From a virus, in the IMG/VR virus record IMGVR_UViG_3300025000_000278, positions 1 to 34,618 of that record: a stretch of DNA of 34,618 nucleotides, one strand, 5' to 3'. Made by a program: the position numbers and the translations under genes. Below, piece after piece: positions 5,052-31,902 of this stretch. Under the pieces are notes generated by a model that did no database searches, was not told where the DNA came from, and saw only the letters and a list, made by a program, of their open reading frames with translations. Positions within the stretch are counted from its first letter, which is position 1; each line of letters starts with the position of its first letter.

Positions 5052-5065
5052 TCAACCGATGAGTG

Positions 5066-5092
5066 AAGGCGTAGGAGCGATCCTACGCCTTT
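5066..5092 (+). terminator. hairpin after capsid gene
   Basis: Perfect 11-bp stem AAGGCGTAGGA / TCCTACGCCTT with a GCGA (GNRA) tetraloop, 15 bases after the capsid stop. The T tract behind it is short (TTTCC), so it may act as a partial terminator or as a 3' stabiliser that raises capsid mRNA over downstream genes. The role is inferred. Confidence 0.7.
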
Positions 5093-5114
5093 CCACATAG
5101 AAGGGAGTCAGATT

Positions 5115-5390
5115 ATGGAACAAAATAGCATCGCCCCACTGGTCGCCGAGTTTCGCGCCGAGAACAACATCGCCACCTCCATCCCCGACAGTGTGTTGAT
5201 CCAATACCTGAAGGAAGGGGAAGCGATGTTGAACGGCTTGGTCGAGCATCTAGAAATCGATTTTAGCACCGATCTGACCTCGCGCGCCTTGTTGAAAGAC
5301 TACATGCGCTATGCCCACTTCGGAGCCCGTGCCGAGTTCAAATCGGTGTACGCCGGTGAAATCTATGCGACGCAAATTAAGTACCTCTAA
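5115..5390 (+). CDS. head-tail connector (gp6-like)
   Basis: 91-aa helical protein with the size and position of the HK97 gp6-like adaptor that docks under the portal: it begins with helices around IPDSVLIQYLKEGEAMLN and has LLKDYMRYAHFGARAEFKSVYAGEI near the end. GAAGGGAG ribosome binding site 8 bases upstream. Its 3' end overlaps the next reading frame by 26 bp. Confidence 0.8.
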   Translation: MEQNSIAPLVAEFRAENNIATSIPDSVLIQYLKEGEAMLNGLVEHLEIDFSTDLTSRALLKDYMRYAHFGARAEFKSVYAGEIYATQIKYL

Positions 5391-5745
5391 GCGCCTTCCC
5401 GTCTACAATGACGGGATGTTGCGCGTTTATCGGCTCAAGCAAACCGAGACGTCGTTTCGGACGGATTTCCTTCAGGACACGGGGGTCACGATGGGGTATC
5501 GCGAACTGTCGATCTATGACAAAACGCGGGTCGCTTACCAAGCGCGTGATCTTGAAGTGACCAAGAAACTGATGGTTTCGCAGACCACGTTGTTTGACGA
5601 GATCCTGTCTGTGATCGAACTCGACGGGAAACAGCACAGGGTTCACAATGCGACACAGGCCGAAGATCCGGAAGGATACATCGAGACGGAGCTGACTTGT
5701 GTCAACGTTCAAATCCCATACAAAAAGGAGAATGAACTCTTATGA
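5365..5745 (+). CDS. head closure / head-tail adaptor protein
   Basis: 126 aa, rich in beta strands, in the place of the head closure (stopper) protein. SVIELDGKQHRVHNATQ and ETELTCVNVQIPY fit the small barrel that seals the portal channel. Start uncertain: ATG 5365 overlaps the connector gene; ATG 5416 (MLRVYRLK) is an alternative that gives 109 aa. The end overlaps the next ATG by four bases (ATGA), which points to coupled translation. Confidence 0.7.
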   Translation: MRRKLSTSKRLPVYNDGMLRVYRLKQTETSFRTDFLQDTGVTMGYRELSIYDKTRVAYQARDLEVTKKLMVSQTTLFDEILSVIELDGKQHRVHNATQAEDPEGYIETELTCVNVQIPYKKENELL

Positions 5746-6080
5746 CGAAACAAGAACTCGATGCGCTGCTTCAATCGTTGAAACCCGGCATTGAAATCAG
5801 TGAAGGGGAGAGCGACGTTGTCGGTTCCTTGCCGCGTATCGCGTACTGGGAATACCACTGGGAGTTTCTCAATGCCAGCGGAAATGCCTACACGAGCGTC
5901 GTGACCTATCAAATTTCCTTTTTCTCGCAGACGCCCAGACACTCGAAACTGATCGAACTTCTCACTAAGTTGGATGCGAGCGGGGCGCTGCCTTCGGTAC
6001 AACATGAAGCCATCAGCGCACCGACGCGGATGATCCACTCGTTCTTCTCACTCGATGTGCTCGAGGATCTGCTGGGATGA
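5742..6080 (+). CDS. probable tail terminator / tail completion protein
   Basis: 112 aa with an alpha/beta pattern: an N-terminal helix (QELDALLQSLKPG), strand-rich middle (YWEYHWEFL, TSVVTYQISFFSQ) and the helix HSKLIELLTKLDASG. Such small proteins between head closure and major tail protein usually cap the tail tube at the head side. In many HK97-like phages the gp10-like gene comes first; here the two appear in reverse order, so the roles could be swapped. ATGA overlaps on both sides. Confidence 0.55.
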   Translation: MTKQELDALLQSLKPGIEISEGESDVVGSLPRIAYWEYHWEFLNASGNAYTSVVTYQISFFSQTPRHSKLIELLTKLDASGALPSVQHEAISAPTRMIHSFFSLDVLEDLLG

Positions 6081-6445
6081 GTGATGACTTCAATTCCGGA
6101 TTCGATGAACTCTCAAGCCTCCTCGCACAGTATTCCGAAAGCACTGAGAACGTCACGAATGCTTTGACGGAAGGCGCCAGAGCGATGGTCGAGGACCTCA
6201 AGAAACTACCCAAACCGAAATCCAAGATCCTCAAGCCGGGGTACACCCATCTGGTGGACTCGTTCACGTTTCGGCGTCAAGGGCGTGAAGTGGAAGTCGG
6301 CTGGGGAAAATACTACGGTCCGATGGTGGAGCGCGGGACGATTACCATGTTGCCGAAAACGCATCTGCGTCCGGTTTGGGAACAAAACAAAGACAAGTAT
6401 CACGCCATCATGATCAAAGCCCTCGGGCTTGGAAAGGAAGGGTAA
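6077..6445 (+). CDS. HK97 gp10-like head-tail joining protein
   Basis: 122 aa. The first half is a helical run (SLLAQYSESTENVTNALTEGARAMVEDLKKLPK). The second half has the family look VEVGWGKYYGPMVERGT with a proline-rich HLRPVWEQNKDKY tail, as in HK97 gp10-type proteins that help assemble the head-tail junction. ATGA overlap with the upstream gene and three bases before the major tail gene. Confidence 0.75.
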   Translation: MSDDFNSGFDELSSLLAQYSESTENVTNALTEGARAMVEDLKKLPKPKSKILKPGYTHLVDSFTFRRQGREVEVGWGKYYGPMVERGTITMLPKTHLRPVWEQNKDKYHAIMIKALGLGKEG

Positions 6446-6448
6446 TGC

Positions 6449-7060
6449 ATGGCCATCACAAGTAAAACGCCTTACATTAAACAATCGGTCGGAGCGCAAT
6501 ACATTGCGTTTGCCACCGGAGTCAATCCGTTGGTTTTTGAAACCAACATCGAGAAGACGGAGACGGTCAAGTCGATCAAGACAACCGAAAATGCGGACTC
6601 GACCGTCGTTCGCGCCTCCGGGAAGGACTACAAGACCATCTCGAAAGCCTCGAGCGTCGAAGTCGCCATCGAGGTCATCGCCTTTGTCGCGGAAACGTTG
6701 GCGAAGATGCGCGGGGAAACCGTCGATGTCGGCGGCTTGGTGCTCTCGGGTGCGCAGACGGATCGTCCGTACTTCGCCTACGGGAAGGTCGTACTGCTCG
6801 ACGGTGGGAAAGCCCGCTACGAATGGTTCCCGAAGTGTCAGTTGGTTTCCAACACCGATGATATCAGCACGTCGGAAGAATCGTTCTCCGAACAGAATGA
6901 CACCCTCACGATCAAGGCGTACGCCTTCGATGCCGCGGGGAACATCAAAACCTATGTCCAAAGCGACATGACGAATTTCCCGGCCGGGTTGACCGAAGCG
7001 GAATTCTTCGCCGCTCCAATTCTCAACGCCGCCGGTTTGACGGCAGCCAACGGGGTCTAA
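6449..7060 (+). CDS. major tail tube protein (phi13-like)
   Basis: 203 aa, forms the stacked rings of the tail tube. The pattern (N-terminal YIAFATG..VFETNIEKTETVKSIK, then ASSVEVAIEVIAF and the strand KVVLLDGGKARYEWFPKCQL) matches the phi13-type major tail proteins of Gram-positive siphophages. Ribosome binding site GGAAAGGAAGGG upstream. Next come the tail chaperones and tape measure, the standard order. Confidence 0.9.
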   Translation: MAITSKTPYIKQSVGAQYIAFATGVNPLVFETNIEKTETVKSIKTTENADSTVVRASGKDYKTISKASSVEVAIEVIAFVAETLAKMRGETVDVGGLVLSGAQTDRPYFAYGKVVLLDGGKARYEWFPKCQLVSNTDDISTSEESFSEQNDTLTIKAYAFDAAGNIKTYVQSDMTNFPAGLTEAEFFAAPILNAAGLTAANGV

Positions 7061-7097
7061 TCAACCCCTTGATAAACGAACAACGAAGGAGCACACC

Positions 7098-7430
7098 ATG
7101 AAGAACAAATTCATCAAACTCGCCAATGACGAGACCATCGAAATGAACGTCAATTTCCTCACCTTGAAAAGCATGGGGGACCAAGGGTTGTTCACGGCGG
7201 ACTTCGCTTCCGAAAACATCAAAGACCGGATCGACATCGCCGCTAAACTCATCTATGCCTTGATGTATTCCAACGGGAAGAAAGTGACGATGGAAGACGC
7301 ATTGCGCCTGGTCCCGATCGGGGAAGAGGACACGTTGATGGAACTCATCGAAGAATTCCAACTCCGTATGGAGGCGTTTCAAAAAAAAACCGCCTCCCGC
7401 GAGCAGCTAAAAGCCCAACTGATGAAATAG
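7098..7430 (+). CDS. tail assembly chaperone, short form (gpG-like)
   Basis: 110 aa product of unshifted translation. It is acidic and helical, as expected for the chaperone that coats the tape measure during tail assembly. GAAGGAGC ribosome binding site 8 bases upstream. Near its end the codons Gln-Lys-Lys are encoded by C followed by nine A, a slippery run that lets some ribosomes continue in the -1 frame (see the extension and frameshift site). The pair stands between major tail protein and tape measure, as in lambda G/GT. Confidence 0.88.
   Translation: MKNKFIKLANDETIEMNVNFLTLKSMGDQGLFTADFASENIKDRIDIAAKLIYALMYSNGKKVTMEDALRLVPIGEEDTLMELIEEFQLRMEAFQKKTASREQLKAQLMK
7370..7397 (+). promoter_or_regulatory. 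programmed -1 ribosomal frameshift site
   Basis: A run of nine A (7381-7389) supplies the heptamer A AAA AAA in the right register. GGAGGCG (7370-7376) just upstream is Shine-Dalgarno-like and is also perfectly complementary to CGCCTCC (7391-7397) just downstream, so the slippery run sits in the 14-base loop of a 7-bp hairpin. A second stem GCCCA(A)CT / AGTGGGC (7413-7437) lies about 25 bases downstream and could act as the pause structure. Which element matters cannot be told from sequence. Confidence 0.8.
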
Positions 7431-7567
7431 AGTGGGCGAGTGTGCTGTATGTCGCGCATACGATCGGGTTGAGTGAAGAGGAACTCTGGAAAAGCGATCC
7501 GTTGCTCTTTTATCAAATGGTTGATTATCACCTGAAGGTGGAAAGGAGTAAAGCCAATGGCGGATGA
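7388..7567 (+). CDS. T extension of tail chaperone, read by -1 frameshift (gpGT-like)
   Basis: After slippage at A-AAA-AAA (7382-7388) the -1 frame stays open for 59 codons to TGA at 7565-7567. It encodes an acidic, aromatic-rich segment with EIEWASVLYVAHTIGLSEEE and DPLLFYQMVDYHLKVE, just what C-terminal T domains of frameshifted chaperones look like (short, with Trp/Tyr helices that bind the major tail protein). The fusion of 7098-7388 with this stretch gives about 156 aa. It has no start of its own and ends 11 bp inside the tape measure gene. Confidence 0.85.
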   Translation, partial: NRLPRAAKSPTDEIEWASVLYVAHTIGLSEEELWKSDPLLFYQMVDYHLKVERSKANGG

Positions 7568-9863
7568 ACTCAAACGCGTAGGTCTCGTCTTCAAGGAAGA
7601 CGGCGCCGTCGATTTCAAACGATCCCTCAGCGAGGTCAACAACGCGCTGGCCAATAATCGTAACCAATACAAGTTGACGCAGTTGGAGTGGGACAAGAAC
7701 ACGTCGGCCAGTCAGAAATTGCGCGCCGAACAAGAATACCTCAGCCAACAATTCGCTTTTCAGGGCGAACGCGTGGATGTTCTACGTCAGAAACTGGCGG
7801 ACTTGGAAGGCGCTGAGAATCAAAACCAAGCCGCCATCAGCAAAACGCGCAAAGAACTTCAATCCGCCGAAGTCAGCATGGTCCGCTATGGGAAAGAATT
7901 GGAAGACGTCAACAAGAAAGTCAAAGAAGGCACGGCGGATCTTAAAGCGATGGCTGAGAAGCTCGAGGTCGTCGGAGAAAAAGCGACCAAAGCCGGGAAA
8001 TCGATGACCAAGAACGTGACGGCTCCAATCACGGCACTGGGTGCCGCGGCCGTCGTCGCGTTCAACAAAGTCGACGAAGCCTATGACGGAATCATCACGG
8101 CGACCGGTGAGACCGGCGCGGTCCTGGATTCCCTGACCGCTTCGTTTGATGCCATCTTCGGGAATTTTCCATTTGAAGCCCAGGCGGTTTCCGATGCCCT
8201 CGGCGGAATCAACACCCGCTTCGGATTGACGGGGGATGCGCTGGAAAGTGCATCGGTGAAGTTTCTCAAGTTTGCGGAAATCAATGGCGTGGATGTCAAG
8301 ACCTCCGTCGAACTCGCACAGCGGGCGTTGGCGGCGGCGAACGAGCCCTTGGGAAACTATGGGACATTGCTTGACATCGCGACGAAAGCCGGCCAGAAGA
8401 CCGGATTGAGCGTCGACGCGCTGCTTCAGTCCTACATTAAGAACGGCGCCCAACTGCGTGCCTTGGGTCTGGGGATGGGCGAAAGCATCGCCTTCCTGGG
8501 TCAAATCGAAAAAGCCGGGATGAACGTCGAAGTGGTGTTTGCCGGATTGAAGAAAGCCAATGGTGCCTGGGCGAAAGAAGGCAAGAATGCCAACGAGGAA
8601 TTCGCCAAGACATTGCAGGCGATGAAGGATGCCCCCTCGACCGCTGAAGCTGCGAAAATCGCGGTTGAAGCTTTTGGCGCAAAAGCCGGTGTGGAACTGG
8701 CGGATAACATCGCACAAGGAAAATTCTCGATCGATGAAATGCAGACGTCGCTGTCCAATTTCGCCGGCGCAACCGAAGAAACGTTCGCGGCGACACAGGA
8801 CCCCATCAATGAAGCCAAAGTGGCCTACAATGCACTAACATTGGCGATGGCTGAACTTGGAAAAGTGATTCAAGAAGCCCTCGGACCGATCATGAAAGCT
8901 TTGGCCGGTTGGTTGCGCGATGTTTCAAAGTGGTTCAAGGATCTGCCCGGACCGATGAAAGACTTGATTCTGGTGATCGGATTGGTGTTGGCCGCTTTGG
9001 GACCGTTGTTGATCTTTGTCGGTTGGGTCGCCGGCGGCATTTCAAGCATCATCACCTTAATCACAACCTTGGCGCCGCTTCTGGCACCGATCGGAGCCGC
9101 GGTAGGTGGCATCAGTATCGCCGTACTTGCGACCGTGGCGGCGATCATCGCGGCGATCGCTATCTTAGCGATTTTCGGGGATGAAATCCAAACCGTCATG
9201 AGTGACGTCTCCACGTTTGTGAACGGGGTTTTCGGGACTTTACGGAATTTCTTTGAGAACGGGATCCTCGCCGGCTTCACCGGGTGGATTCTTTTCTTTC
9301 AAGACTTGTTCAATGCCATCGTCAAAATACTAAACGGGATCATCGACATCATCCGAGGGACGTTCACAGGTGACTGGAAACGCGTTTGGACCGGTGTTCT
9401 GAATGTCTTCAGCGGACTCTTTGACGGGTTGTGGGGCATTGTCAAACTCCCGTTCAACCTGATCATCGGCGGCTTGAACGCCCTGATCAACGGCATCAAC
9501 TGGGTCATCGGCGGGTTGAATAAAATCAAGTTCGACATCCCGGACTGGGTCCCGGTCGTGGGTGGGAATTCGTTTGGCATCAACCTGAAGTCGTTGGGGA
9601 ACATCAAGTATCTGGCCAACGGGGGCGACCTCATGGCGGGGATGGCGGTGGTCGCGGAAGCCGGACCGGAGCTCTTGCTTCAACAAGGGAATTCGACCAA
9701 GGTCGTTCCACTCTCGCAATCGTCCAAGAATCACGTTGAAATCATCGATTATGACCGGCTTGAAGCTCTCTTGCTTCGGGTATTGGCCAAGATGAGACTG
9801 GAAATCGGGACGGACGGCGTTTTACGGTTGATCCGTCGTGAAATCTTCGGAACGGGGGTGTAA
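7557..9863 (+). CDS. tail tape measure protein
   Basis: 768 aa, the longest tail protein apart from the fibre. Residues 1-150 are coiled-coil-rich (heptads around LAEQEYLSQQF and RKELQSAEVSM). Then comes a TP901-type core (NVTAPITALGAAAVVAFNKVDEAYDGI) and a hydrophobic stretch at roughly 460-545 (LILVIGLVLAALGPLLIFV and following), typical of tape measure proteins that enter the host membrane. The C-terminus has GGDLMAGMAVVAEAGPELL, a common tape measure ending. At about 1.5 angstrom per residue the tail would be near 115 nm. GAAAGGAG ribosome binding site; overlaps the T extension. Confidence 0.93.
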   Translation: MADELKRVGLVFKEDGAVDFKRSLSEVNNALANNRNQYKLTQLEWDKNTSASQKLRAEQEYLSQQFAFQGERVDVLRQKLADLEGAENQNQAAISKTRKELQSAEVSMVRYGKELEDVNKKVKEGTADLKAMAEKLEVVGEKATKAGKSMTKNVTAPITALGAAAVVAFNKVDEAYDGIITATGETGAVLDSLTASFDAIFGNFPFEAQAVSDALGGINTRFGLTGDALESASVKFLKFAEINGVDVKTSVELAQRALAAANEPLGNYGTLLDIATKAGQKTGLSVDALLQSYIKNGAQLRALGLGMGESIAFLGQIEKAGMNVEVVFAGLKKANGAWAKEGKNANEEFAKTLQAMKDAPSTAEAAKIAVEAFGAKAGVELADNIAQGKFSIDEMQTSLSNFAGATEETFAATQDPINEAKVAYNALTLAMAELGKVIQEALGPIMKALAGWLRDVSKWFKDLPGPMKDLILVIGLVLAALGPLLIFVGWVAGGISSIITLITTLAPLLAPIGAAVGGISIAVLATVAAIIAAIAILAIFGDEIQTVMSDVSTFVNGVFGTLRNFFENGILAGFTGWILFFQDLFNAIVKILNGIIDIIRGTFTGDWKRVWTGVLNVFSGLFDGLWGIVKLPFNLIIGGLNALINGINWVIGGLNKIKFDIPDWVPVVGGNSFGINLKSLGNIKYLANGGDLMAGMAVVAEAGPELLLQQGNSTKVVPLSQSSKNHVEIIDYDRLEALLLRVLAKMRLEIGTDGVLRLIRREIFGTGV

Positions 9864-10541: not shown

Positions 10542-12031
10542 TGCGAAATGAAATCTATGTCCATTTAGCAACCGAGACCAGCTTTACGGACACCTTCGGG
10601 ATTCCGAAGAATGGCGAAGGATCCCTGTTTCCCCTGTCTTGTATCGAAACCAAAGATGCGGATACCTGGGAAGTCGAAATCATCGCTCCGGTTAATGATC
10701 AATCGCTTTTGCTCCATGACCGCATCGTATACTTGAAGACCCGGTATGGTTACCAACCCTTTCGGATTGGTAATCCCGAGTATGGCGACGTCTCGGTTTC
10801 GGTCGTCGCCAAACATGTTGGTTTTGACCTTCAGAATGTGTATCTGGACTTCTCGACTTCGATTGAGAACACCTGTCAGCAAGCGATGGATGACATCTTG
10901 AGCCATGCCATTCCGGCCTGTTCCTTCACCGCCTTCTCTGATGTGTCCGGGGTGGACACGTTTTCCATTTTGCAGGTGTCGGTCCTAGATGCCTTCATCC
11001 AACTTGCCGAGCAGGCGGGAGCCTACCTTGACTTCGATCATTTCCAAATCCGCATCACCACCTCTCAAGGTTCGGATCACGGGGAATCGATCGAATATGG
11101 CAAGAATCTGCTTGGAGCGACGGTTATCGAGAACTGGGACAATGTCGTCACGGATCTTCTACCCGTCGGCAATGCGGAATTAACGCTTCCCGAAGAGTGG
11201 TTGCATGCGGATATCGCCTATGATCGTCCGTATACAAAGCGAATCGAGTTCAATACCGACATGGAAGACAACTTACGCTTTGTGGCGACACTTTATTTGG
11301 CGCGCTATAAGGTGCCTCGTATCAATTATGACGTCCGTTCAACTGCCATTCAGAACGTTCAACTCGGGGACACGATCTCTGTTATCGCGCCGAAGTTCAG
11401 TATCCTAACCCAAGTCATCCGATATCAAAACGACGTGCTTCAGGACGAGATCGTCGCGGTCGAATTCGGGAATTATCAGACCGGATTGAAGCAACTCTTC
11501 GGTGAATACCGTGCGACCATCGAAGCTTCGGCCATTCGCAAAGCGCAGTTGAAAATCGATGAAGTCAACGGGCGCATCTCCGCCATCGCACAGAACATCG
11601 TCCTGATCGCCGGGGACATCGAGAGTCTTGAACAAGGGACCACGGAAATCAACCAACGCTTCGACGGTGTGACGATCACCATCAATCAGCAAGTCGATGC
11701 CTTGGCGCAAGTGCAAGCGGCTACGGACGAGAACACCGCGGCGATCGATGCGACAGCGGAAGCCCTGACGCTTCAGAAAACCTACTACGATTTCGGACCG
11801 GACGGCCAAGTCATCGGTCGCAGCGACAGTCCGGCACAGATCCGCATGGAATACGATGCTGAGTCCAAGGCGCAGGTGGTCGTGACCGACGGATACAACG
11901 ATACCTTGCTACTGAAATCAAACGGGGTGAAGGCGAACAACATTGAAGTGGTCGAATCCTTCATCGCCGGGAATCACAAGGTGCAGAAACTGACCGGGAG
12001 TGACTCGGTTACGATTTGGTTGCCCATCTAG
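10541..12031 (+). CDS. tail-associated hub protein (Tal, gp27-like)
   Basis: 496 aa. The N-terminal ~350 residues look like the prophage endopeptidase-tail or gp27 hub fold (VLDAFIQLAEQAGAYLDFDHFQI, KRIEFNTDM, VQLGDTISVIAPK). They are followed by a coiled-coil stalk (EINQRFDGVTITINQQVDALAQVQ region, about 375-435) and a short C-terminal domain. No peptidase active site is recognised. It plugs the baseplate and probably carries the fibre proteins encoded next. Confidence 0.85.
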   Translation: MRNEIYVHLATETSFTDTFGIPKNGEGSLFPLSCIETKDADTWEVEIIAPVNDQSLLLHDRIVYLKTRYGYQPFRIGNPEYGDVSVSVVAKHVGFDLQNVYLDFSTSIENTCQQAMDDILSHAIPACSFTAFSDVSGVDTFSILQVSVLDAFIQLAEQAGAYLDFDHFQIRITTSQGSDHGESIEYGKNLLGATVIENWDNVVTDLLPVGNAELTLPEEWLHADIAYDRPYTKRIEFNTDMEDNLRFVATLYLARYKVPRINYDVRSTAIQNVQLGDTISVIAPKFSILTQVIRYQNDVLQDEIVAVEFGNYQTGLKQLFGEYRATIEASAIRKAQLKIDEVNGRISAIAQNIVLIAGDIESLEQGTTEINQRFDGVTITINQQVDALAQVQAATDENTAAIDATAEALTLQKTYYDFGPDGQVIGRSDSPAQIRMEYDAESKAQVVVTDGYNDTLLLKSNGVKANNIEVVESFIAGNHKVQKLTGSDSVTIWLPI

Positions 12032-12046
12032 AAAGGGGAGGATTGC

Positions 12047-14416
12047 ATGGCATTAGTCATCACATCATCAGTCGCAATCAACGATTCAACCTCCTCCTAT
12101 AGCGCGGTCGTCTCCGGGAAATTGGTTTCCAATGCGCGAATCGACTTCATCCTTAAAATCAACGGGGTCGCCGTCGCGAGTGTTTCCACGACCGGGACCA
12201 GTGCGACGCTGACCGGCGTGTTGGCTTCCGAGATCTACGACAACGCCCAGGGTCACTCTTTAACCAACGCGGCGACGCTTGAAGCCCTGGAAGACAATGG
12301 ACTAGGGGGTGTCGCGCAATCAGCCTCGAAGTCGGGGAACATCACCATCAACGCGCGGTGCAGCGGGTTAAACACCAGCTCACCGACAAGCGGTTCTCCC
12401 ATCAATCTCGATAGCGGGGATCCGGTGAACATCAGCGCATCCTGGACACGACCCCACGCAGCGTTTCGCGGTCGATTGAAAGGTTATGTCTACAATGGCT
12501 CCACCTATGTCTTGATCTTCAATCGGTATGACTATACGACCAGTGCGAATTTCGACGTCGTGGCGCTGGGATACAACGACGAGATGATCGCCGCGATGAA
12601 CGGAGTCTCACCCCGCAATTTCAAACTGGAACTCTATACGCAGTTTGATGACGGGACGGTGGACAATCTGGACATCGGCGGACTGAACGATTCTGACATC
12701 ATCACCAACGGAGTAACCAAGACCTTCGTCACCCTGTCGCGCATCGCCATCGGGAATTTCGAACTATTACCAATCGATCTGAGTGTACCGTTCACTCTGA
12801 CCACTTACGGGTCGTTTTCGCACACGATACGTTTGTTTTTGAAGAAAACGGATGGAACCTCCGTCCTGATTAAGACACAAAGCGTCTCAGCTGGCGTGGT
12901 CTCCGGGAATTTCGCGATTGGAGCCACGGAACGCTCGATCATTCTCAATGCGCTGCCGACGTCGACGTATGCGACGACGTATGCCGAAGTGGACACGGCG
13001 GCATATGGAACCACCGACAGCAAATCCGTCGCGACGACATTGACGCTTAACGCCGAATTCAAACCGGTGATCGGATCCATCGTCCATGCGGAGAGCGCGG
13101 CGACCCAATATGTCAAAACGGCGCTGGGATATGGGGCAGGGACGCCGTTCTACGTGACGTCGAAGTCCAAAGTCGCCTTCACCATTCCCATCACGCATGC
13201 CACGGGAGCGACGTTGGCGATGATCCGTGTGCAATTCGCAGGGACGGACAAATCACAGGCTGCAAGCCCTCTGACGACGGATGCACTGGTTACGTCCGGT
13301 TCTTTGATGGCGACGATCACGGTCACCGACAGTCGCGGTCGGACTTCGACACTGACAACAGCCGCCATCGTGGTTCGCTCCTACACCTATCCGAAAGTCG
13401 ATAAGTTCGAAGTGTTCCGCGCTGCATCCGTGTCCGGTGCATTTGATCCCCTTGGCACCTATCTTCGCGCCGTTATCCAGGGAACGGCCTACTCCGTGCT
13501 TGCCTTGGACGGCGCGACGCAGAAGAACTGGATCAAGTACAAGATCGACTACCGCGTCAAAAACACCGGTTCCTTCAGCAACAACGCGGCGGTTATACCG
13601 GGCGGACTGACGTTTGGAGAATTGACCATCAACGGAATCGCCGGTTTTCTCGCTGCGAATGCCTATGATGTCCGGATTCGAGTGTACGACGCTTTCTACG
13701 ACTTGGACAATGACGCCTCGCCGCTTGAAGACACCGACGACTACGCGGAAACGCTCACCTTGCTTCAGATCGCCGGGGTTTCGATGTTTTTGGGTCCGGA
13801 TTATGTTGCGTTCGGGAAGGTGCATAGCGGGGGTGCCAACAATACGATCGAAGCACTGAAGGCGATCGTGGCCGGGACACAATTGATTTCCCAACAGGAA
13901 ACCGGGACGCCTCCGTTGGTGGTGGCATCCACGACGCAAGTTCCAAACCTCAACGTTGACCGTCTAGATAATTATCATGCCGGGAACGCCTCCGGGCAGA
14001 TTCCGGTATCCAACGGTGTGATGAACGACAATCTGAACGCCGATCTTTTGGACGGATTTGAAGGTGCGGATCTTCAGGACATCCTCGCGGTCGGATCCAG
14101 CGGGACACATTACTGGATCAAGTTCAAGGATGGGACGCTGATCAAGTATGGTGTGGCGTCAGTAACGATGGCGGTTGCCACAACGTGGGGAAGCGGGTTC
14201 ACTTCGGCGGAGCAAACCTACACCTTCAACACGACGATTCCGTTCACTACGGTTCCACATGTTTCACTGGATCTCATCAATTCCGGCGGATCGACAATGA
14301 TCGCAGCAATCACCAATGCGACGGCTCTGCTTTTCAAATTCGTCGCGTTGCGATTTGCGACATTGGCTTCCGGCGCGATTACCTATAAGTATTTTGCGAT
14401 TGGGCGTTGGAATTAA
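12047..14416 (+). CDS. minor structural / tail fibre protein (DUF859-like)
   Basis: 789 aa, very rich in Thr, Ser, Ala and Gly, made of successive Ig-like beta domains over residues 1-560, with the SGDPVNISASWTRPHAAFRGRLKGYVYNG region resembling DUF859-type minor structural proteins. After FLGPDYVAFGK come the degenerate repeats LNVDRLDNYHAGN and LNADLLDGFEGAD (a motif common in fibre stalks). A C-terminal knob of about 105 residues starting THYWIKFKDGTLIKYG resembles gp53-like fibre tips. Likely contacts the cell surface. AAAGGGGAGG ribosome binding site. Confidence 0.8.
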   Translation: MALVITSSVAINDSTSSYSAVVSGKLVSNARIDFILKINGVAVASVSTTGTSATLTGVLASEIYDNAQGHSLTNAATLEALEDNGLGGVAQSASKSGNITINARCSGLNTSSPTSGSPINLDSGDPVNISASWTRPHAAFRGRLKGYVYNGSTYVLIFNRYDYTTSANFDVVALGYNDEMIAAMNGVSPRNFKLELYTQFDDGTVDNLDIGGLNDSDIITNGVTKTFVTLSRIAIGNFELLPIDLSVPFTLTTYGSFSHTIRLFLKKTDGTSVLIKTQSVSAGVVSGNFAIGATERSIILNALPTSTYATTYAEVDTAAYGTTDSKSVATTLTLNAEFKPVIGSIVHAESAATQYVKTALGYGAGTPFYVTSKSKVAFTIPITHATGATLAMIRVQFAGTDKSQAASPLTTDALVTSGSLMATITVTDSRGRTSTLTTAAIVVRSYTYPKVDKFEVFRAASVSGAFDPLGTYLRAVIQGTAYSVLALDGATQKNWIKYKIDYRVKNTGSFSNNAAVIPGGLTFGELTINGIAGFLAANAYDVRIRVYDAFYDLDNDASPLEDTDDYAETLTLLQIAGVSMFLGPDYVAFGKVHSGGANNTIEALKAIVAGTQLISQQETGTPPLVVASTTQVPNLNVDRLDNYHAGNASGQIPVSNGVMNDNLNADLLDGFEGADLQDILAVGSSGTHYWIKFKDGTLIKYGVASVTMAVATTWGSGFTSAEQTYTFNTTIPFTTVPHVSLDLINSGGSTMIAAITNATALLFKFVALRFATLASGAITYKYFAIGRWN

Positions 14417-14441
14417 GGCGAATGCCTAGAAAGGAGAAGAG

Positions 14442-14774
14442 ATGGGTTCATTAACAGTGCACGGTAAAAACACCGCTGCAACACAGCTAGGTTTGGCTTA
14501 TCCGTATATGGCTTTGTTTACTGATGATGCCGGGACAGTGGAGTTAGTCGGGTATACACGTCCGGCATGCAATTGGGGAGCGCCTTCGAATGGGGTGATC
14601 AATCTTACGGCTGCCTTAACAATCGACGTTCCAGCCGGTGCATCGATTAAGTCGTTCGGTCCGATTTCAGCGCTCTCCGGCGGGAATCTCGGTGGCGTTC
14701 ATAATGCCGGCGACGAGACGTTCACCAATGCCGGGAAGTATCAGATCACCAGTTGTCCGCTAACGGTCACATAA
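14442..14774 (+). CDS. small baseplate/fibre-associated protein
   Basis: 110 aa, all-beta. The segment INLTAALTIDVPAGASIKSFG followed by SALSGGNLGG resembles the short tail-fibre proteins of actinobacterial and other siphophages (pattern: F-x-V-P-x-G-T..GG). Likely a fibre tip, chaperone or decoration protein. GAAAGGAGAAG ribosome binding site. Placed among receptor-binding genes. Function inferred from pattern and position only. Confidence 0.55.
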   Translation: MGSLTVHGKNTAATQLGLAYPYMALFTDDAGTVELVGYTRPACNWGAPSNGVINLTAALTIDVPAGASIKSFGPISALSGGNLGGVHNAGDETFTNAGKYQITSCPLTVT

Positions 14775-14781
14775 GGCATGT

Positions 14782-16179
14782 ATGCCTAGCGTAACACTTT
14801 ACCCGAGTTCGCATACGCTTGGCACAAACGGGGCGAACTTTCTCAATCCAACCAATCTTAGAGCGAATGATGGAATCTATGCCACAGTCACACAAACGGC
14901 AAAAAATACGACCTCTCAAATCTACTTGGAAGCGTTCGATGCGTCTTCGATTCCCAGTGGATCGACGATCAACTCCATCATCGTCAATGTCGAACGAAAG
15001 ATGTCCTCGACATCCTCGATCCAATCTGTCGCAATCCAAGCCTACAAAGCTTCAGTGGCGATGGGTACCAAAACAACGAATACGACCGAGCCGTCGACGG
15101 ATACGGTTCTCTCGAACTCAAACACCGGTTCGTGGTCCTTTGCCGATTTGCCCAACTTGCGAGTCCTCCTGGAGAATATTCGAGGAAACTCGACGGCAGC
15201 CTGTACCGTATCCTATGACTATGTTTCCATTACCGTGGATTATACGGAACCCGTGGATACACGAATCGTATCGGGTGATTTTGGAACAAATGTTTCATTC
15301 GAAGCCAGTAATGAAAAGACTGCTTTAGTGAGTGCGTCACTGGGGTGTATTTGCGAAGTGAATGGTGGATTCACAGCCACCCATGTTGGTTTTGGGAACA
15401 TTGATTTAGTAGTTTCCATCATTGGGGGAAGCGTCAGAGTCGTTTCAATCGATGGAAGTCTTGACGTTTCAACTGCACTCTCTGGGATTTCTCAAAAGGT
15501 GGTTGATGTTGAAAGCATTCTTGGTGCTTCCATTCTTATCAGTGGGGCATACATCAAGACAGGAATTCAAGCCGGAATCATCGAAGCGGACATCCCTATC
15601 AATGCGGAGGGAATGAAATTAAGCATCCAAAATGGAAGCATTTCGCTCGGTGGTCAGATCATTGGTCAAAACACGAAAACCGGTCAACAGAGTGGCCAGT
15701 TTTTGCTTCAAGCTGATCTAGCAGGGGTTTTTATCAAACTTGCAGATCAAGTTGGAACAATCGATCTCCTGGTTACGATGAATGGGGCTGGACAACGAGT
15801 GTTGGAGACGGATGAAGTGAAGTCGGTGGCAGGGAATATCGTCATTGCCGTCGATTTGACTAGCCAGGTAGAGCGAACATCGACAGGATCAGGCATGATT
15901 TCATGTATTGTCGAAAACGCCGCAGAAGCCCTTAAAATGACGCTCAGAGTCGGTGGCATTATATTGGAGTGTGGATGTGCCGGCGAACACTTCGTTATTG
16001 AATTCTCCAATATTGAGTTTGAGAAATCATCCCATCAGATCAGTTCCAGTAAGCATATTTCGCTAGGATCTGTGCAAATTGATTTTGGCAACTCCAGTGG
16101 TGAGAAACGATTGAACAAGAAAGAACAAGGGCACGCCTTCATTCAGAAGCCCATAAAAAGTGAGGTGAAGTGGTCATGA
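14782..16179 (+). CDS. baseplate protein with jelly-roll N-domain and 20-residue repeats
   Basis: 465 aa. Residues 1-155 form a strand-rich domain that looks like a carbohydrate-binding jelly roll (NLRANDGIYATVTQ, QIYLEAFDASSIPSGSTINSI). Residues 165-410 are twelve copies of a 20-residue unit with pattern G-x-[ILF]-x3-[VI]-x-[IL]-x-[GA]-x3-[KR], broken only by one 6-residue insertion after copy nine. The C-terminal ~35 residues are basic. It probably forms an elongated solenoid or fibre that reaches the host surface. The ribosome binding site is poor (AAGGCATGT). Ends overlapping the next gene. Confidence 0.7.
   Translation: MPSVTLYPSSHTLGTNGANFLNPTNLRANDGIYATVTQTAKNTTSQIYLEAFDASSIPSGSTINSIIVNVERKMSSTSSIQSVAIQAYKASVAMGTKTTNTTEPSTDTVLSNSNTGSWSFADLPNLRVLLENIRGNSTAACTVSYDYVSITVDYTEPVDTRIVSGDFGTNVSFEASNEKTALVSASLGCICEVNGGFTATHVGFGNIDLVVSIIGGSVRVVSIDGSLDVSTALSGISQKVVDVESILGASILISGAYIKTGIQAGIIEADIPINAEGMKLSIQNGSISLGGQIIGQNTKTGQQSGQFLLQADLAGVFIKLADQVGTIDLLVTMNGAGQRVLETDEVKSVAGNIVIAVDLTSQVERTSTGSGMISCIVENAAEALKMTLRVGGIILECGCAGEHFVIEFSNIEFEKSSHQISSSKHISLGSVQIDFGNSSGEKRLNKKEQGHAFIQKPIKSEVKWS
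15274..16011 (+). repeat. twelve 60-bp coding repeats (20-residue units)
   Basis: Unit starts fall at residues 165, 185, 205, 225, 245, 265, 285, 305, 325, 351, 371 and 391 of the protein starting at 14782. Spacing is exactly 20 residues except for one 26-residue step. The DNA copies are diverged, so the periodicity is visible only in the protein: Gly at position 1, Ile/Leu/Phe at 3, a small aliphatic residue at 7 and 9, Gly/Ala at 11, Lys/Arg at 15. Confidence 0.8.
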
Positions 16180-16490
16180 TTTTTGAAAGGTATACCGGCG
16201 AGTCCATCGAGCGTGAAATCACTGTGCTCGACAAGGAAACCAATGAAGTGGCTGATCTGAGCGGGGCAATCGCCAAGTTCAAATGTGTCTCTCGCGCTGA
16301 CGCGACATCCATCATGTTGGAAAAAGAATGTGTCATTGCATCGAATGTAGTCAGTTTCACGTTGGGCTCGGCAGAAACACAGACAGCAGGCGACTTTATT
16401 TACGAGATGAAGCTAAAACTCGGGTCCAAAGAATCGGTTCTTGATCGCGGTGAAATTCATTTAAAACAGTCTCTAATTACGGAGATCTAG
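16176..16490 (+). CDS. BppU-like baseplate upper domain protein
   Basis: 104 aa, single Ig-like beta domain: DKETNEVADLSGAIAKFKCVSR, SFTLGSAETQTAGDFIYEMKLKLG, ESVLDRGEIHLKQ. This is the usual look of BppU N-terminal domains that attach receptor-binding proteins to the baseplate. I chose ATG 16176 (GAGGTGA 7 bases upstream, ATGA overlap with the previous stop) over GTG 16170. Confidence 0.65.
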   Translation: MIFERYTGESIEREITVLDKETNEVADLSGAIAKFKCVSRADATSIMLEKECVIASNVVSFTLGSAETQTAGDFIYEMKLKLGSKESVLDRGEIHLKQSLITEI

Positions 16491-16502
16491 AAAGAGGGAA
16501 AT

Positions 16503-16847
16503 ATGATCAACACCATCCTACTCATCCAAATCCTCGTCATCGCCTTAATTGTCGAGGTGATTGCACTTCAAACCATTCAGATGGTTAAAGGCTACATCCC
16601 CAACACCAGGGCGATCCCCTTCGTTTCTCTCATCCTAAACCTGATCTTGGCCAGCGCCTTCGTCTGGTTCTTCGTGACGTTTGATGAAACGTACCCACTC
16701 TATAAATTGTTTGTCGGTCTCTGGGTTGGGTTCATCTCGTGGATCGGTGCAGATACTCTCTATAAAACACTGAATAGCAAAGGGTTATTGAAATCTCAAA
16801 GCGAGATGTTGCCGCCTGAAGGTGAGAAACCGGAAGGTACGGAATGA
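16503..16847 (+). CDS. putative holin
   Basis: 114 aa with three predicted membrane segments (about residues 3-24, 38-61 and 68-90) and a charged, Pro/Glu-rich C-terminal tail, directly upstream of the lysin. Such a protein would open the membrane at the end of infection so the lysin reaches the cell wall. AAAGAGGG ribosome binding site. I did not match it to a specific holin family. Confidence 0.7.
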   Translation: MINTILLIQILVIALIVEVIALQTIQMVKGYIPNTRAIPFVSLILNLILASAFVWFFVTFDETYPLYKLFVGLWVGFISWIGADTLYKTLNSKGLLKSQSEMLPPEGEKPEGTE

Positions 16848-16948
16848 TGTCCGAGAGAATCGAAGAGATTGAATTGAGCGATCTCGACTACAGTGTCGAG
16901 ATCGCTTTCCTGCTCGCCCAGGAAGAGGAGGGGAAGAAACATGACTAA
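16844..16948 (+). CDS. tiny acidic protein between holin and lysin
   Basis: 34-codon ORF that overlaps the holin stop (ATG inside GAATGATG) and the lysin start. GGAAGG lies upstream at suitable distance. It is acidic (ERIEEIELSDLDYSVEIAFL), with no signal or membrane segment. The codons for SDLDYSVEIA also form a 12-bp hairpin. It may be a real short protein or mainly a device that couples translation of holin and lysin. Confidence 0.4.
   Translation: MMSERIEEIELSDLDYSVEIAFLLAQEEEGKKHD
16877..16906 (+). other. 12-bp inverted repeat upstream of lysin
   Basis: Perfect stem AGCGATCTCGAC / GTCGAGATCGCT with a 6-base loop TACAGT, 34 bases before the lysin ATG. Only TTCC follows, so it is not a full terminator. 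It could delay lysin expression relative to the holin by folding the mRNA, or protect the downstream message. The role is inferred. Confidence 0.6.
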
Positions 16949-17876
16949 AACGAATCTCGGGTTAGTGGAATACGTCAAATCCAAACTTGCACTGAAAACC
17001 ATCTACATGCTCGGTGGATTCGGGCGGATCCTGACTCAGGCAATGATCGATCGCCGTATCAATATGGGATGCCCGCACACGATCCGGAATCTATCTACAA
17101 TACAAGCCGGGATAGGTCGATACTGCTTCGACTGTGTCGGATTGATCAAAGGGTATCTTTGGGAGATTTCCCCGGGCAGAGTCGACTACAACATTCCCAA
17201 AGGATCCGATCAGAACGTCGGCATGATGTACAACAGTTGCACTCAAAAAGGAGTGCTCGTATCCATGCCTGATATTCTAGGACTGTTGGTATTCACAAGG
17301 GATTTGGGACACGTCGGAGTCTACATTGGTAGGGATGCAGCAGGGAAGCGGCAATACATCGAAGCCACTCCGGCATGGGGTAAATGGGGAGTCTGTCAAT
17401 CAAACGACGACATCCGTTCCTGGGCGTTCTGGGGAAAGTATCACCTAATCGAGTACATTGAGCCGGTTGTTGAACCAGCTGTCCCGAAACTGAAATTCAA
17501 AGCCGGTCAAAAAATCGTTCTCAACGGGAGGGTATACAAGAACTCACTCATGGGTGGTCCGGGTGCGATCTTCTCCAAACGTGTAGGTTACATTCGATTT
17601 CTGGTCGATGAAGAAATTGTGCCGGCACCATACCACATCGATGGATTAGGTTGGGTCAAAGAGGAGTCACTAGCATTAGCACCAATCACGATTGAGATTC
17701 CCAAAATCAAGACCGGTGACAAGGTAAAGATTTCCGGGACACATTATGCCACCGGTGAGAAAGTCCCGTTCTGGGTTAAACTACGCGTCCATACAGTGGC
17801 TGCTGTATCAGGATCCAAAGCGCGTCTCAAAGAAATCAACTCATGGGTGAACATTAAGGATCTCAAGAAGGTTTAG
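16941..17876 (+). CDS. endolysin, NlpC/P60-type with SH3-like C-terminal domains
   Basis: 311 aa peptidoglycan hydrolase. Residues 1-170 form a cysteine peptidase: YCFDCVGLIKG gives the nucleophile (Cys65) at the head of a helix, LGHVGVYIG gives His124, and YIEATP follows. Residues ~185-245 and ~258-311 are two SH3-like strand-rich modules (FKAGQKIVLNGRVYKNS; IKTGDKVKISGTHYATGEKVPFWVK), likely wall binding. I chose ATG 16941 (GAGGAGGGG 8 bases upstream); upstream in-frame codons overlap the tiny ORF. Acts on the cell wall after holin action. Confidence 0.88.
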   Translation: MTKTNLGLVEYVKSKLALKTIYMLGGFGRILTQAMIDRRINMGCPHTIRNLSTIQAGIGRYCFDCVGLIKGYLWEISPGRVDYNIPKGSDQNVGMMYNSCTQKGVLVSMPDILGLLVFTRDLGHVGVYIGRDAAGKRQYIEATPAWGKWGVCQSNDDIRSWAFWGKYHLIEYIEPVVEPAVPKLKFKAGQKIVLNGRVYKNSLMGGPGAIFSKRVGYIRFLVDEEIVPAPYHIDGLGWVKEESLALAPITIEIPKIKTGDKVKISGTHYATGEKVPFWVKLRVHTVAAVSGSKARLKEINSWVNIKDLKKV

Positions 17877-17880
17877 AGCG

Positions 17881-18189
17881 ATGGATTGGTTACTACAAAG
17901 TATCGCCACTAACCTGGTGTGGGCGGCGCTTGGCGCCATGATGAGTTATATCCTTTTCCTTCGTAAGCAGCTTAAGTCAATGAAGAACGCGCTTGTTGCA
18001 TTACTTCGAAATGCAATCGTATCAGCGTACAATAAGTCGGTCGAACGGAAATTCGCACCGATTTTCGAACGTGAGAACGTTCAAAAGCTCTTCGATGAAT
18101 ATAAAATCCTTGGTGGAAACGGTACGATTGATCACTTGATTGATGAATTCCATGAACTTCCAACGCATCAGATCGAGCAAGCCCCCTGA
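17881..18189 (+). CDS. second lysis-module membrane protein (holin-like)
   Basis: 102 aa. One N-terminal membrane segment (about residues 5-27, LVWAALGAMMSYILFL), then a charged helical region with AYNKSVERKFAPIFERENVQ and LGGNGTIDHLIDEFHELPT. This arrangement recurs in small membrane proteins beside lysins in Bacillota phages. It may be a holin, antiholin or accessory lysis factor. Four bases after the lysin stop, and it is the last gene before a strong terminator. Confidence 0.6.
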   Translation: MDWLLQSIATNLVWAALGAMMSYILFLRKQLKSMKNALVALLRNAIVSAYNKSVERKFAPIFERENVQKLFDEYKILGGNGTIDHLIDEFHELPTHQIEQAP

Positions 18190-19398: not shown

Positions 19399-19435
19399 CT
19401 TTCATCGACGTATAAGAGTATTAGGAGGTGATATT

Positions 19436-19534
19436 ATGATCCTGGCATTCTGGTTGGAGTGCTTTCTAGATTTCTACCGTGAGGTTGAGAAATCCGGATT
19501 TACTAAGCAGCATAGTGACGAGAGAATGATTTAG
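19436..19534 (+). CDS. tiny MILA-family protein, copy 1
   Basis: 32 aa, too short for normal gene finders, but TTAGGAGGTGATATT precedes the ATG (a near-perfect ribosome binding site) and the product MILAFWLECFLDFYREV recurs in the 36-aa ORF at 21527 (about 21 of 32 positions identical, with the same upstream bases). The conserved part is aromatic and amphipathic. Function unknown; a small toxin or membrane-active peptide is possible. Confidence 0.55.
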   Translation: MILAFWLECFLDFYREVEKSGFTKQHSDERMI

Positions 19535-19636
19535 TATACAGAGTAATAGTTTTCCTAGAATCTAAGTTATTATCTAGGCTGAATTATCAATCGTTTTATG
19601 ATTATATGATCCTATAATTTTAAAGTTTCTTACTAG

Positions 19637-21294: not shown

Positions 21295-21526
21295 GTAGTA
21301 ATTGTAACATTCTTGCCACGAAATCTGACATTATGCAAAACTATCAAACACCACTTAAACCCTTCTTATACAATAAATATCATGTTTTATCATGTTGACA
21401 CCATTTAAAACTATCTAAATTCTTTAATACGCTATTGTGAGGTAGTAGTATATAAATCACAGAATAATTAGTATTTCGTTAGGATAATGCAAAATAAGGT
21501 CATATTTGGGAATAGGAGGTGATATT

Positions 21527-21637
21527 ATGATCTTAGCGTTCTGGTTAGAATGTTTTCTAAGCTTCTATAGGGATGTGGATGCTTCCAATCTATCGGACCA
21601 GCAAAAAGATGAAGTAATGATTTGGTATGTAAGTTGA
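21527..21637 (+). CDS. tiny MILA-family protein, copy 3
   Basis: 36 aa. AATAGGAGGTGATATT before ATG is the same ribosome binding region as copy 1, and MILAFWLECFL-FYR-V is shared. The DNA differs at many third positions (CTG/TTA, GCA/GCG, TTG/TTA) while the peptide is kept, which argues for selection on protein. Unknown function. It lies about 60 bases before the attP arm repeats. Confidence 0.55.
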   Translation: MILAFWLECFLSFYRDVDASNLSDQQKDEVMIWYVS

Positions 21638-21950: not shown

Positions 21951-23225
21951 TTAAGAAGATACCTTCTTGAGACCGCTTTTTGTGAGCTTAATATGATCAG
22001 GAAATCTCTTTTTTGAACTTGCATGAGTTCTTCTCGACAGTTTCAACGGGGCGACAACTGTCATTGATTTTACCATCTCGATTTGTTTTTCTCTCCAAAG
22101 ATGCGCGTAAGTTTTGTCGATTTCTTCTCGCGAATCACCTACACGCTTGGCAATTTGCATATCACTATATCCCATATTTATTAAGTAAGAAACATGCGAA
22201 TGTCTGAAGTCGTGAATATTAATAGGTTCAATCCCAGCAACTTTAAAATAGTAGTCCTTAATATTACATAATGTCGTCGGTGGTAACCTATCATAGAAGC
22301 TGACAAGTGGGCGATCAAGTGAATAGCCAGGAAGAGTTCGATAATGGTAGATCAGGTTGATTAATAACTGATCCACTTCATCTGGTACTACAATATTTCG
22401 ATTTCCGTTTTTTGATTTCGGTGGTGTAATAATTTTGTTCGTATAGTCCCAGTTCTTGTAGACACTAAGTTCTTTATTGATGAAATCGTAGTCTCTAATA
22501 TCGAGCGCCATGAGTTCACCCTTACGTAGTCCACACCAGAACAACAATGAGAATATGATTGTATGCTGCATTCTATTCAATTCTTCATCTGGATGGCTTT
22601 TAGTCACCCTTGTATGGGCTTGTATCACACCATACAGCGTTCTATACTGTGAGGTGGTAATAATGGACATTGAAGGTAGAACAGGTACTGTACGGCGTTT
22701 CCTGAAGCCCACGTACCGTAATGGGTTAAAGTTGCACATCTTTTTTGTGATCGAGTATTCGAATATTGCATTGAGCAAAGTTTGTATTTTTTCAAGAGTT
22801 CTATTATCATAATGTTCTTCTCTTTGATTGCCAGAAGCTTTGGTGCCACTTACATAGGTGGCACTAAGTAACTTCTCTTGCCATTTTTCAATATGGATCG
22901 GTTCGATGCTTGTGAGAATCATCTCACCAAAAAAGACCTTAATGTGTTTTTCGTAAACTTTCTGATTATCATATTGAGAACGCAACTTCATGAGGTCACG
23001 GTCCTTTTGTTTCATGTATTCAGTAAACAAATCATTAAATGTGATAATCGTGCTTGCATCACGACTTTTGATTGAATCCATAAACGCAGATTCAGCATCA
23101 ATTGCATCCTGTTTTGACCATTTATCATTTCGCTGCTCTTTTTTTCGCCAATTACCGGTAGGGTCCTTGTAATTCAATCTAAAACCATAGACATACTTTT
23201 TGTCTTTTTTTAGCTTGGTAAGCAT
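21951..23225 (-). CDS. int: tyrosine integrase
   Basis: 424 aa. Order: N-terminal AP2-like arm-binding domain (KKYVYGFRLNYKDPTGNWRKK, residues ~9-29), SAM-like core-binding domain (~62-165), and catalytic domain with Arg234 (GLRKGE), His338/Arg341 (HDFRHSH) and Tyr373 (TYAHLW). Catalyses integration at attP. I chose ATG 23225 because AAGGAAG lies 7 bases upstream and the start follows the repressor stop by one base (TAG-T-ATG); an in-frame ATG at 23261 would overlap the repressor. Co-transcribed with the repressor, so it is probably expressed in the lysogen. Confidence 0.93.
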   Translation of the reverse strand: MLTKLKKDKKYVYGFRLNYKDPTGNWRKKEQRNDKWSKQDAIDAESAFMDSIKSRDASTIITFNDLFTEYMKQKDRDLMKLRSQYDNQKVYEKHIKVFFGEMILTSIEPIHIEKWQEKLLSATYVSGTKASGNQREEHYDNRTLEKIQTLLNAIFEYSITKKMCNFNPLRYVGFRKRRTVPVLPSMSIITTSQYRTLYGVIQAHTRVTKSHPDEELNRMQHTIIFSLLFWCGLRKGELMALDIRDYDFINKELSVYKNWDYTNKIITPPKSKNGNRNIVVPDEVDQLLINLIYHYRTLPGYSLDRPLVSFYDRLPPTTLCNIKDYYFKVAGIEPINIHDFRHSHVSYLINMGYSDMQIAKRVGDSREEIDKTYAHLWREKQIEMVKSMTVVAPLKLSRRTHASSKKRFPDHIKLTKSGLKKVSS

Positions 23226-23226
23226 A

Positions 23227-23862
23227 CTAGAACTTCCTTCGAATTTCGATGACTCGTCCAACTATTTCTACTGGGATGGATATGATCTCTTCATGATTGA
23301 AAACAAGCGGCTCGTAATTATTATTGAAAGGGATCAACATAATGCCTGATTCACGTTTAACAACTCGTTTTACCGTAGCATCATGTCCATTGATCAGGAC
23401 TATTCCAATTTGTCCACTATCAACATCTGCTTGTTTCTTAACGATTGCAATATCACCATCAATGATTACTGGTTGCATGCTATCACCCCTGATTTGTAAT
23501 GCAAAAAAGTCCCCAGTCTTCGCTAATTCCGGAGATATTTCTTCGTAATCAATAATATCTTGAACTGCTTCGATTGGTAACCCCGCAACAACTTTTCCCA
23601 AAACCGGTATCTTTATTCCGTTCGTTGATGGAATCGGCATCATATCTCTATGGTAGTCATTTTCATAACCAAGTAGCCATGTTTCTTTCACACCTAATGC
23701 AATTGCAATTCTAGAAATCTTGTCACTCTTTGGCATCACCTTACCGCTCATATATTGACTAATAAAAGATTTACCAATTCCGGACTTTTCTGATAAATCA
23801 GATTGTTTGAATCTTTTCATTTTGAGTGCTTGATGAAGCCTTTCAACAAAGATGCTGTCCAT
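23227..23862 (-). CDS. CI-like repressor, XRE helix-turn-helix plus S24 peptidase
   Basis: 211 aa. The helix-turn-helix is at ~18-45 (KQSDLSEKSGIGKSFISQYMSGK). The C-terminal LexA/CI fold has the self-cleavage site VVAGLP (Ala93-Gly94), catalytic Ser128 in RGDSMQP and Lys165 in ATVKRVV. Keeps lytic genes off in the lysogen and is expected to cleave itself when RecA is activated by DNA damage. Divergent from the Cro-like gene across a 166-bp control region. Confidence 0.93.
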   Translation of the reverse strand: MDSIFVERLHQALKMKRFKQSDLSEKSGIGKSFISQYMSGKVMPKSDKISRIAIALGVKETWLLGYENDYHRDMMPIPSTNGIKIPVLGKVVAGLPIEAVQDIIDYEEISPELAKTGDFFALQIRGDSMQPVIIDGDIAIVKKQADVDSGQIGIVLINGHDATVKRVVKRESGIMLIPFNNNYEPLVFNHEEIISIPVEIVGRVIEIRRKF

Positions 23863-31403: not shown

Positions 31404-31419
31404 GGGACATGGAGGGAAA

Positions 31420-31902
31420 ATGACGTTAACACTCAAAGAACAGGCACTGGCGAAAATGCTTGTCGAAATGAACCAGCCGCATGATGAAACCATCGATGAA
31501 GTTCATAATTTCCTATGTGAACAAGAGGATGATGAATTGTTCGTCGGGATACTCATTGAAGGAAAGACAATCCAAGATGCGATGAATTACCTTGTGGCTG
31601 AGGCGAAAAAGAACCATCGCTTCAGAATCAGTGATTCAGAAGGCTTTAAGATCATCAAACAGTATTTTCTTGGTTCTGAAACGAAAGTCGCTTCCGTCGG
31701 CAAAGTTAGCAGCCGACCGGTCCAGACCTCACAAGCCGAAAGAGAGAAGCAAGTAAGTAAGTCCATCAAACCCAGCGTGAAGAAAAAGACGGACACGGGT
31801 TCGAACCTATCAATCTTCGACTTCATGGATGAGATTCCAACTGAATTGGAAGGGGACAATGACGAAGATGAAGAAGATGAAACCGACGAAGTTGACGACT
31901 GA
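31420..31902 (+). CDS. PcfK-like protein
   Basis: 160 aa. The N-terminal helical domain (LTLKEQALAKMLVEMNQPHDETIDEVHNFLCEQEDDELFVGILIEGKTIQDAMNYL region) fits PcfK of pheromone-responsive plasmids. The middle is basic and disordered; the end is strongly acidic (EGDNDEDEEDETDEVDD). I chose ATG 31420 (GGAGGG 4 bases upstream). Its 3' end overlaps PcfJ, the same pairing as on plasmids. Biochemical role unknown. Confidence 0.75.
   Translation: MTLTLKEQALAKMLVEMNQPHDETIDEVHNFLCEQEDDELFVGILIEGKTIQDAMNYLVAEAKKNHRFRISDSEGFKIIKQYFLGSETKVASVGKVSSRPVQTSQAEREKQVSKSIKPSVKKKTDTGSNLSIFDFMDEIPTELEGDNDEDEEDETDEVDD

Follow-up and report, generated by a model that had tools for sequence, protein, structure and literature searches.

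A 20-residue repeat protein encoded by an optional three-gene cassette of a temperate siphophage genome is a probable component of an accessory virion fibre

An optional cassette of three genes, found in one phage genome and missing from a close relative, encodes a 465-aa repeat protein that probably (we put the probability at roughly 0.6) makes up the long part of an accessory fibre on the virion. The cassette would be of the same type as the fibre genes of Ralstonia podophage GP4 and the optional gene trio of Alishewanella phage LSH1, and the repeats would form a solenoid shaft. Strict 20-residue repeats recur beside genes for Gp80-like proteins, and this recurrent partnership is new. The likely function of the 465-aa protein follows from the cassette, which had been missed in the preliminary description of this DNA.

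The window, by which we mean the whole 34.6-kb stretch of DNA analyzed, is an IMG/VR virus record whose gene content is that of a temperate siphophage: terminase, portal, Clp-type protease, capsid, tape measure, Dit, Tal and a tail-fibre-like protein, together with a holin, an endolysin-like gene, an integrase, a CI-like repressor and a replication organiser. The terminase shares 43% identity with its counterpart in Erysipelothrix phage SE-1, and Bacilli and Clostridia MAGs contain relatives of it. Two different tyrosine-recombinase genes are present (21951–23261, minus strand, and 29207–30046, plus strand), and the replication end (31381–33409) holds PcfK-like and PcfJ-like genes, whose names come from conjugative plasmids. 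The gene of the repeat protein stands after a 789-aa tail-fibre-like gene and before the holin gene; the label of baseplate protein, which was inferred, is plausible.

The open reading frame of this gene (14782–16179, plus strand) encodes 465 aa, as first described. Residues 165–410 (15274–16011) are made of twelve 20-residue units, starting at residues 165, 185, 205, 225, 245, 265, 285, 305, 325, 351, 371 and 391, with one 6-residue insertion, EVKSVA (residues 345–350, 15814–15831), between units 9 and 10. The mean BLOSUM62 score at lag 20 was +0.25, where 5000 shuffles gave −0.79 ± 0.15 and at most −0.23, which places the observed value ~7 SD above expectation; the second-highest peak of self-similarity was found at lag 40. 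The unit table and the lag-20 score bear out the arrangement of twelve units and one insertion given in the preliminary description. The six-position motif proposed there for the unit is too strict, as it was matched in full by 2 of the 12 units and at five positions by 8, while units 2 and 12 matched two and three positions, respectively. A looser column pattern holds better: glycine occupies column 1 in 10 of 12 units, column 3 is hydrophobic in all of them and column 5 in 11, columns 7 and 9 are hydrophobic or small throughout (with one Asn at column 9), column 11 is always Gly, Ala or Ser, and column 15 is Lys or Arg in 10 units. This single column takes 10 of the 11 Lys/Arg residues found inside units.

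The DNA copies are diverged, as had been claimed. Mean pairwise identity between units is 0.35 for DNA and 0.18 for protein, and at third codon positions it is 0.30, where 0.26 is expected from composition; the unit is therefore old. That the hydrophobic, Gly and Lys/Arg columns persist although the third positions have diverged implies structural selection.

The repeats are flanked by two other parts. The N-terminal domain (residues 1–158, 14782–15255) is a putative beta-sandwich that matches a 470-aa open frame of another IMG/VR phage, L131 (E = 6.6e-7); what it has in common with the proteins of phages L134, L136 and L141 is a short IPxGxTIxS-type motif only. The C-terminal tail (residues 411–465, 16012–16176) contains 9 Lys/Arg against 6 Asp/Glu, and Arg/Lys-rich tails follow the repeats in several homologues too. 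No direct sequence homologue of the entire protein was found: it belongs to no Pfam family, tblastn returned no relative in phages, plasmids, viral contigs or genome contigs, and a consensus-unit query had no match among phages. Searches with a repeat profile (392 genomes) and with the N-terminal domain (295 genomes), covering the phylum of one Erysipelotrichaceae MAG, which may not be that of the host, gave no usable match either. A sequence search of the PDB with the window protein, its marine counterpart from contig L143 and Burkholderia phage BcepIL02 gp56 found no relative.

The cassette (14435–16494) encodes, in this order, a 110-aa protein like phrog_240 and Gp80 (14442–14774, plus strand; phrog_240, E = 1.2e-13), the 465-aa repeat protein and a 106-aa putative beta-sandwich adaptor (16170–16490, plus strand; phrog_1084, E = 5.4e-4). 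The three genes are gained or lost as one block. By blastn, window positions 11669–14434 correspond to positions 2–2770 of the close relative L003 (92%) and window positions 16495–17885 to L003 2768–4158 (82%), with nothing between them, so that L003 is cleanly without the three cassette genes, a single block of 2060 bases. On either side of the block the two phages remain close, their upstream tail proteins being 95% and their endolysin-like proteins 88% identical. Each boundary carries a ribosome-binding sequence on the plus strand, CTAGAAAGGAG on the left (14426–14436) and CTAGAAAGAGG on the right (16487–16497), within which homology to L003 resumes at 16495. The motif CTAGAAAGRRG occurs four times in the window (2047, 12028, 14426 and 16487), each time immediately before a gene, where none would be expected by chance; one pair flanks the cassette and another pair the tail-fibre-like gene. 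Such copies could plausibly have acted as recombination joints through which the cassette was gained or lost.

A profile of the 110-aa protein with its homologues, to which it is 32–38% identical, matched PDB 8jou_a (E = 6.4e-10) and 9c39_K (E = 5.3e-6); the window protein alone did not reach the Pfam Gp80 family. The 106-aa protein stands where other trios carry Gp77, LtfC or BppU_N proteins, with no Pfam match and no hhalign match to Gp77.

Unlike the 465-aa protein, its 110-aa neighbour has homologues, and the relatives of the cassette were reached through it. In the marine contigs L142–L144, a Gp80-like gene is followed in turn by genes for a repeat protein of exactly 20-residue period and for a 117-aa protein; Pfam assigns the products of the outer two genes to Gp80 'fiber I' (E = 2.9e-45) and Gp77 'fiber-tail adaptor' (E = 2.3e-14). 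Further trios were found in BcepIL02 (gp55–57), Gordonia phage Puppers (gp26–28) and mycobacteriophage Tourach (gp22–24), where gp22 is Gp77, gp23 is Gp80 and gp24 has a period of 20 (z = 7.4; scored after the locus count given below). The layout is thus seen in marine, Burkholderia, Gordonia and mycobacterial phages. The third protein is Gp77, LtfC or BppU_N depending on the phage, so the adaptor seems to be exchangeable.

To count this association, we took 15 non-redundant loci picked by their Gp80-like gene and not by repeats, with Gp80-like proteins <60% identical to each other and neighbours that could be scored. An immediate neighbour with its best lag at 20 and z of at least 5 was found at 10 of the 15 loci, and the other five had no clear period-20 neighbour. 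Among the other open reading frames of these loci, 3 of 132 had a lag of 19–21 at z of at least 5, and as two of these (Puppers gp28 and Nigel gp28) are true Gp80 neighbours, the background is about 1 in 130. What looked like a lone repeat is in this way a member of a recurring fibre module. A Gp80-like gene with an adjoining 20-residue period can serve as a signature for accessory fibres that family searches miss, since Pfam scans of the repeat proteins collected here never matched the repeat region itself. One published observation counts against a virion fibre: in Burkholderia phage JC1, gp53 and gp55 were detected in virions by mass spectrometry and the repeat protein gp54 was not (PMC9144972).

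Two characterized systems resemble the cassette. In GP4, Gp80 and Gp77 are podophage fibre and adaptor proteins with structures in PDB 8JOU and Pfam families PF23140 and PF23148, as described by citing papers and Pfam, and the trio of BcepIL02 (gp55–57) is recognizably of the GP4 type. The window likewise has a Gp80-like gene directly upstream of the repeat gene and that of a small protein downstream in the place of Gp77. However, its genome is of siphophage type with Firmicutes relatives, its adaptor is not detectably a Gp77, and gp56, which is the repeat protein in the BcepIL02 trio, has no match among PDB sequences.

In LSH1, gp34–36 form an extra structural module, treated as virion proteins, whose three genes are always found as a set, carried by roughly half of the related genomes; gp35 matches chain g of PDB 8JOU, and gp36 has an Ig-like fold (PMC13243795). 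The N-terminal domain of gp34 is lyase-like, and it is followed by a region, a doubtful beta-helix in the AlphaFold model, which the authors could not interpret and for which they consider a linker (PMC13243795). The window shares with LSH1 the optional three-gene set, the 8JOU-like protein and a long protein that would pair a payload domain with a beta-helix-like region, but the payload of gp34 is lyase-like and the N-terminal domain of the window protein is a different one. The 20-residue period is not described for LSH1, and we observed it only in a likely homologue. Slicko01 and Slickus01 are named as carrying larger gp34-like proteins (PMC13243795), and Slicko01 WGH49683, an open frame of 1850 residues (record positions 103569–109100; L180:15573–21122) annotated as hypothetical, has a period of 20 in its second half (z = 12.2); it is likely the gp34 homologue meant in that paper. 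A 20-residue solenoid shaft would offer a testable reading of the domain that was left unexplained in 2026. The period as a criterion for the module is proposed here and is not part of any published definition of the GP4/LSH1-type module.

From these comparisons, we infer a virion location, a fold, a polarity and a payload role for the 465-aa protein. The N-terminal domain would be either the payload, probably a glycan-binding beta-sandwich, or an attachment domain. The twelve units would stack into a rigid shaft, most likely as a flattened beta-solenoid in which each unit makes one turn: residues 2–10 would form a strand, residues 11–13 a Gly turn and residues 14–19 a second strand, with the Lys/Arg of column 15 lined up on one outer edge. 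Attachment to the virion, probably close to the tail tip, would be through the basic C-terminal tail together with the Gp80-like and putative beta-sandwich partners, and the gain or loss of whole units would alter the length of the fibre.

The same module might instead decorate the head or neck, an alternative that we consider fairly unlikely. It draws on the filing of phrog_240 under head and packaging, on the position of the trio close behind the capsid gene in Burkholderia-type podophages and beside the terminase in the marine contigs, and on GP4 and DEV, which are reported to carry fibres on a collar round the tail near the head–tail adaptor. The window cassette, however, comes after the tail-tip genes, and repeats of this kind are found fused to tail proteins: 20-residue-type repeats are joined to Tal (Prophage_tail) in L134 (6394–9090) and L136 (6389–9187), and in PVJ1 (L173:3402–4427), a Mu Gp48-like domain is joined to a repetitive N-terminus.

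We then asked whether the repeat is one and the same across phages by aligning the mean hydropathy of each column, with Lys/Arg masked, to the window unit in a rigid 20-residue phase. BcepIL02 gp56 (p = 0.010), MW202462 (p = 0.004) and L143 (p = 0.006) fitted the window unit, and after this fit their Lys/Arg fell at columns 15.2, 15.8 and 16.0, respectively, compared with 15.3 in the window. Ochrobactrum phage OH also fitted (p = 0.002) and lacked a basic column. PBC5 and Nigel gave a weak fit in a different register, and MW202879, Cerasum, POI1126 and L134 gave no significant fit to the window unit; their repeats may have diverged or may be merely similar. One column layout is therefore common to at least four phages. 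A version of the test that allowed jumps was too permissive and was dropped. An HMM of the window unit recognized MW202462 clearly (E = 2.5e-9) and the other families mostly weakly; such scores were rejected as proof of descent because reversed sequences score too (3.7e-8 for the reversed window protein and 4.8e-6 for reversed MW202462), and common descent of the repeats is thus not proven.

At somewhat less than even odds, there might be a single widespread, unnamed 20-residue beta-solenoid repeat with a conserved basic column, which phages of Gram-positive, Gram-negative and mycobacterial hosts use as a length-adjustable fibre shaft and combine with a connector of the Gp80 kind and a beta-sandwich adaptor that can be exchanged. 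The marine contigs (L142–L144 and L150–L154) share the exact 20-residue period with the window, L142–L144 also its gene order, and L143 has its basic residues in the same column. They differ in an Ala/Thr-rich unit without Gly, another N-terminus and C-terminal ExR-type repeats. Repeat number, which the preliminary description had suggested comparing among related phages, was seen to vary in this marine family rather than within the window's own lineage: the ends of the proteins align, and the gaps between their middles, of 80, 40 and 20 residues, correspond to whole units.

In the marine family, as in L143 (5354–6400), the ExR-type motifs occur about every 9 residues at the C-terminus, after the 20-residue repeats, and W-rich motifs occupy the same place in L158 and L159. 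Docking to the adaptor is possibly the role of these short C-terminal repeats.

A single-sequence model of the window protein was uninformative (pLDDT 33). Alignments of the window repeats with the marine ones lost phase in places and were left out of modelling. The L143 protein, modelled from eight sequences, was all beta, with a pLDDT of 53 overall and 62–70 in the central repeats, and can be taken as a solenoid with modest confidence. In VIA-align, its best rows were the SufB/SufD beta-helix (~200 residues, Z 13.6, rmsd 4.5) and curlin CsgA (152 residues, Z 11.5, rmsd 8.0), which have no sequence relation to the repeat proteins and are structural analogies to the L143 model, not to the window protein. 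Foldseek found nothing for this model at E ≤ 0.001; its third viral row was a 762-aa minor tail protein of Tourach, and Tourach gp24, which adjoins the Gp80-like gene, is a minor tail protein of exactly 762 aa. The proposal of the preliminary description that each old unit forms one turn of a beta-solenoid fits the unit-wise insertions and deletions and, with modest confidence, the L143 model, although the model of the window protein itself is of no help; a 20-residue turn of two strands would suit the column pattern of the window.

Phage fibres are often trimers, and the units could build a fibre of another fold, for example a beta-spiral of three intertwined chains, all the more as the modelling was single-chain only. 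The single-chain solenoid obtained for L143, with its central repeats at the higher pLDDT, argues against this alternative, which we regard as unlikely, and for the solenoid shaft.

The preliminary description had also suggested that the Lys/Arg ladder could bind an anionic polymer of the cell wall such as teichoic acid. The ladder itself is real, and its ten aligned residues would line up in a solenoid. But the repeat region is net acidic (12 Lys/Arg against 25 Asp/Glu), and PBC5 (Sinorhizobium), MW202462, DSL-LC06, Nigel and others, Gram-negative-host phages included, likewise have a phase-locked basic column, so the column marks repeats of this kind and not teichoic-acid binding, and a receptor-binding role for the repeats is improbable. 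That the region does no more than link the N-terminal domain flexibly to the tail, its period being a relic, is very improbable, since the columns are kept over near-chance third positions, even though a linker is what the LSH1 authors consider for the matching region (PMC13243795). The solenoid shaft of an accessory fibre is the reading we retain as most likely for the twelve units.

Beyond the cassette, the comparison with L003 brought up two further features. Past the endolysin-like gene and one small gene, L003 carries an IetA/IetS anti-phage defence pair (4486–8096; PADLOC, E = 1.8e-136 and 4.4e-244) that was not noted in the window, so this region may be an accessory site. In addition, window positions 19409–19537 (81%) and 21514–21637 (72%) both match the same 138 bases of L003 (8553–8690) and are copies of a repeated, perhaps non-coding element.
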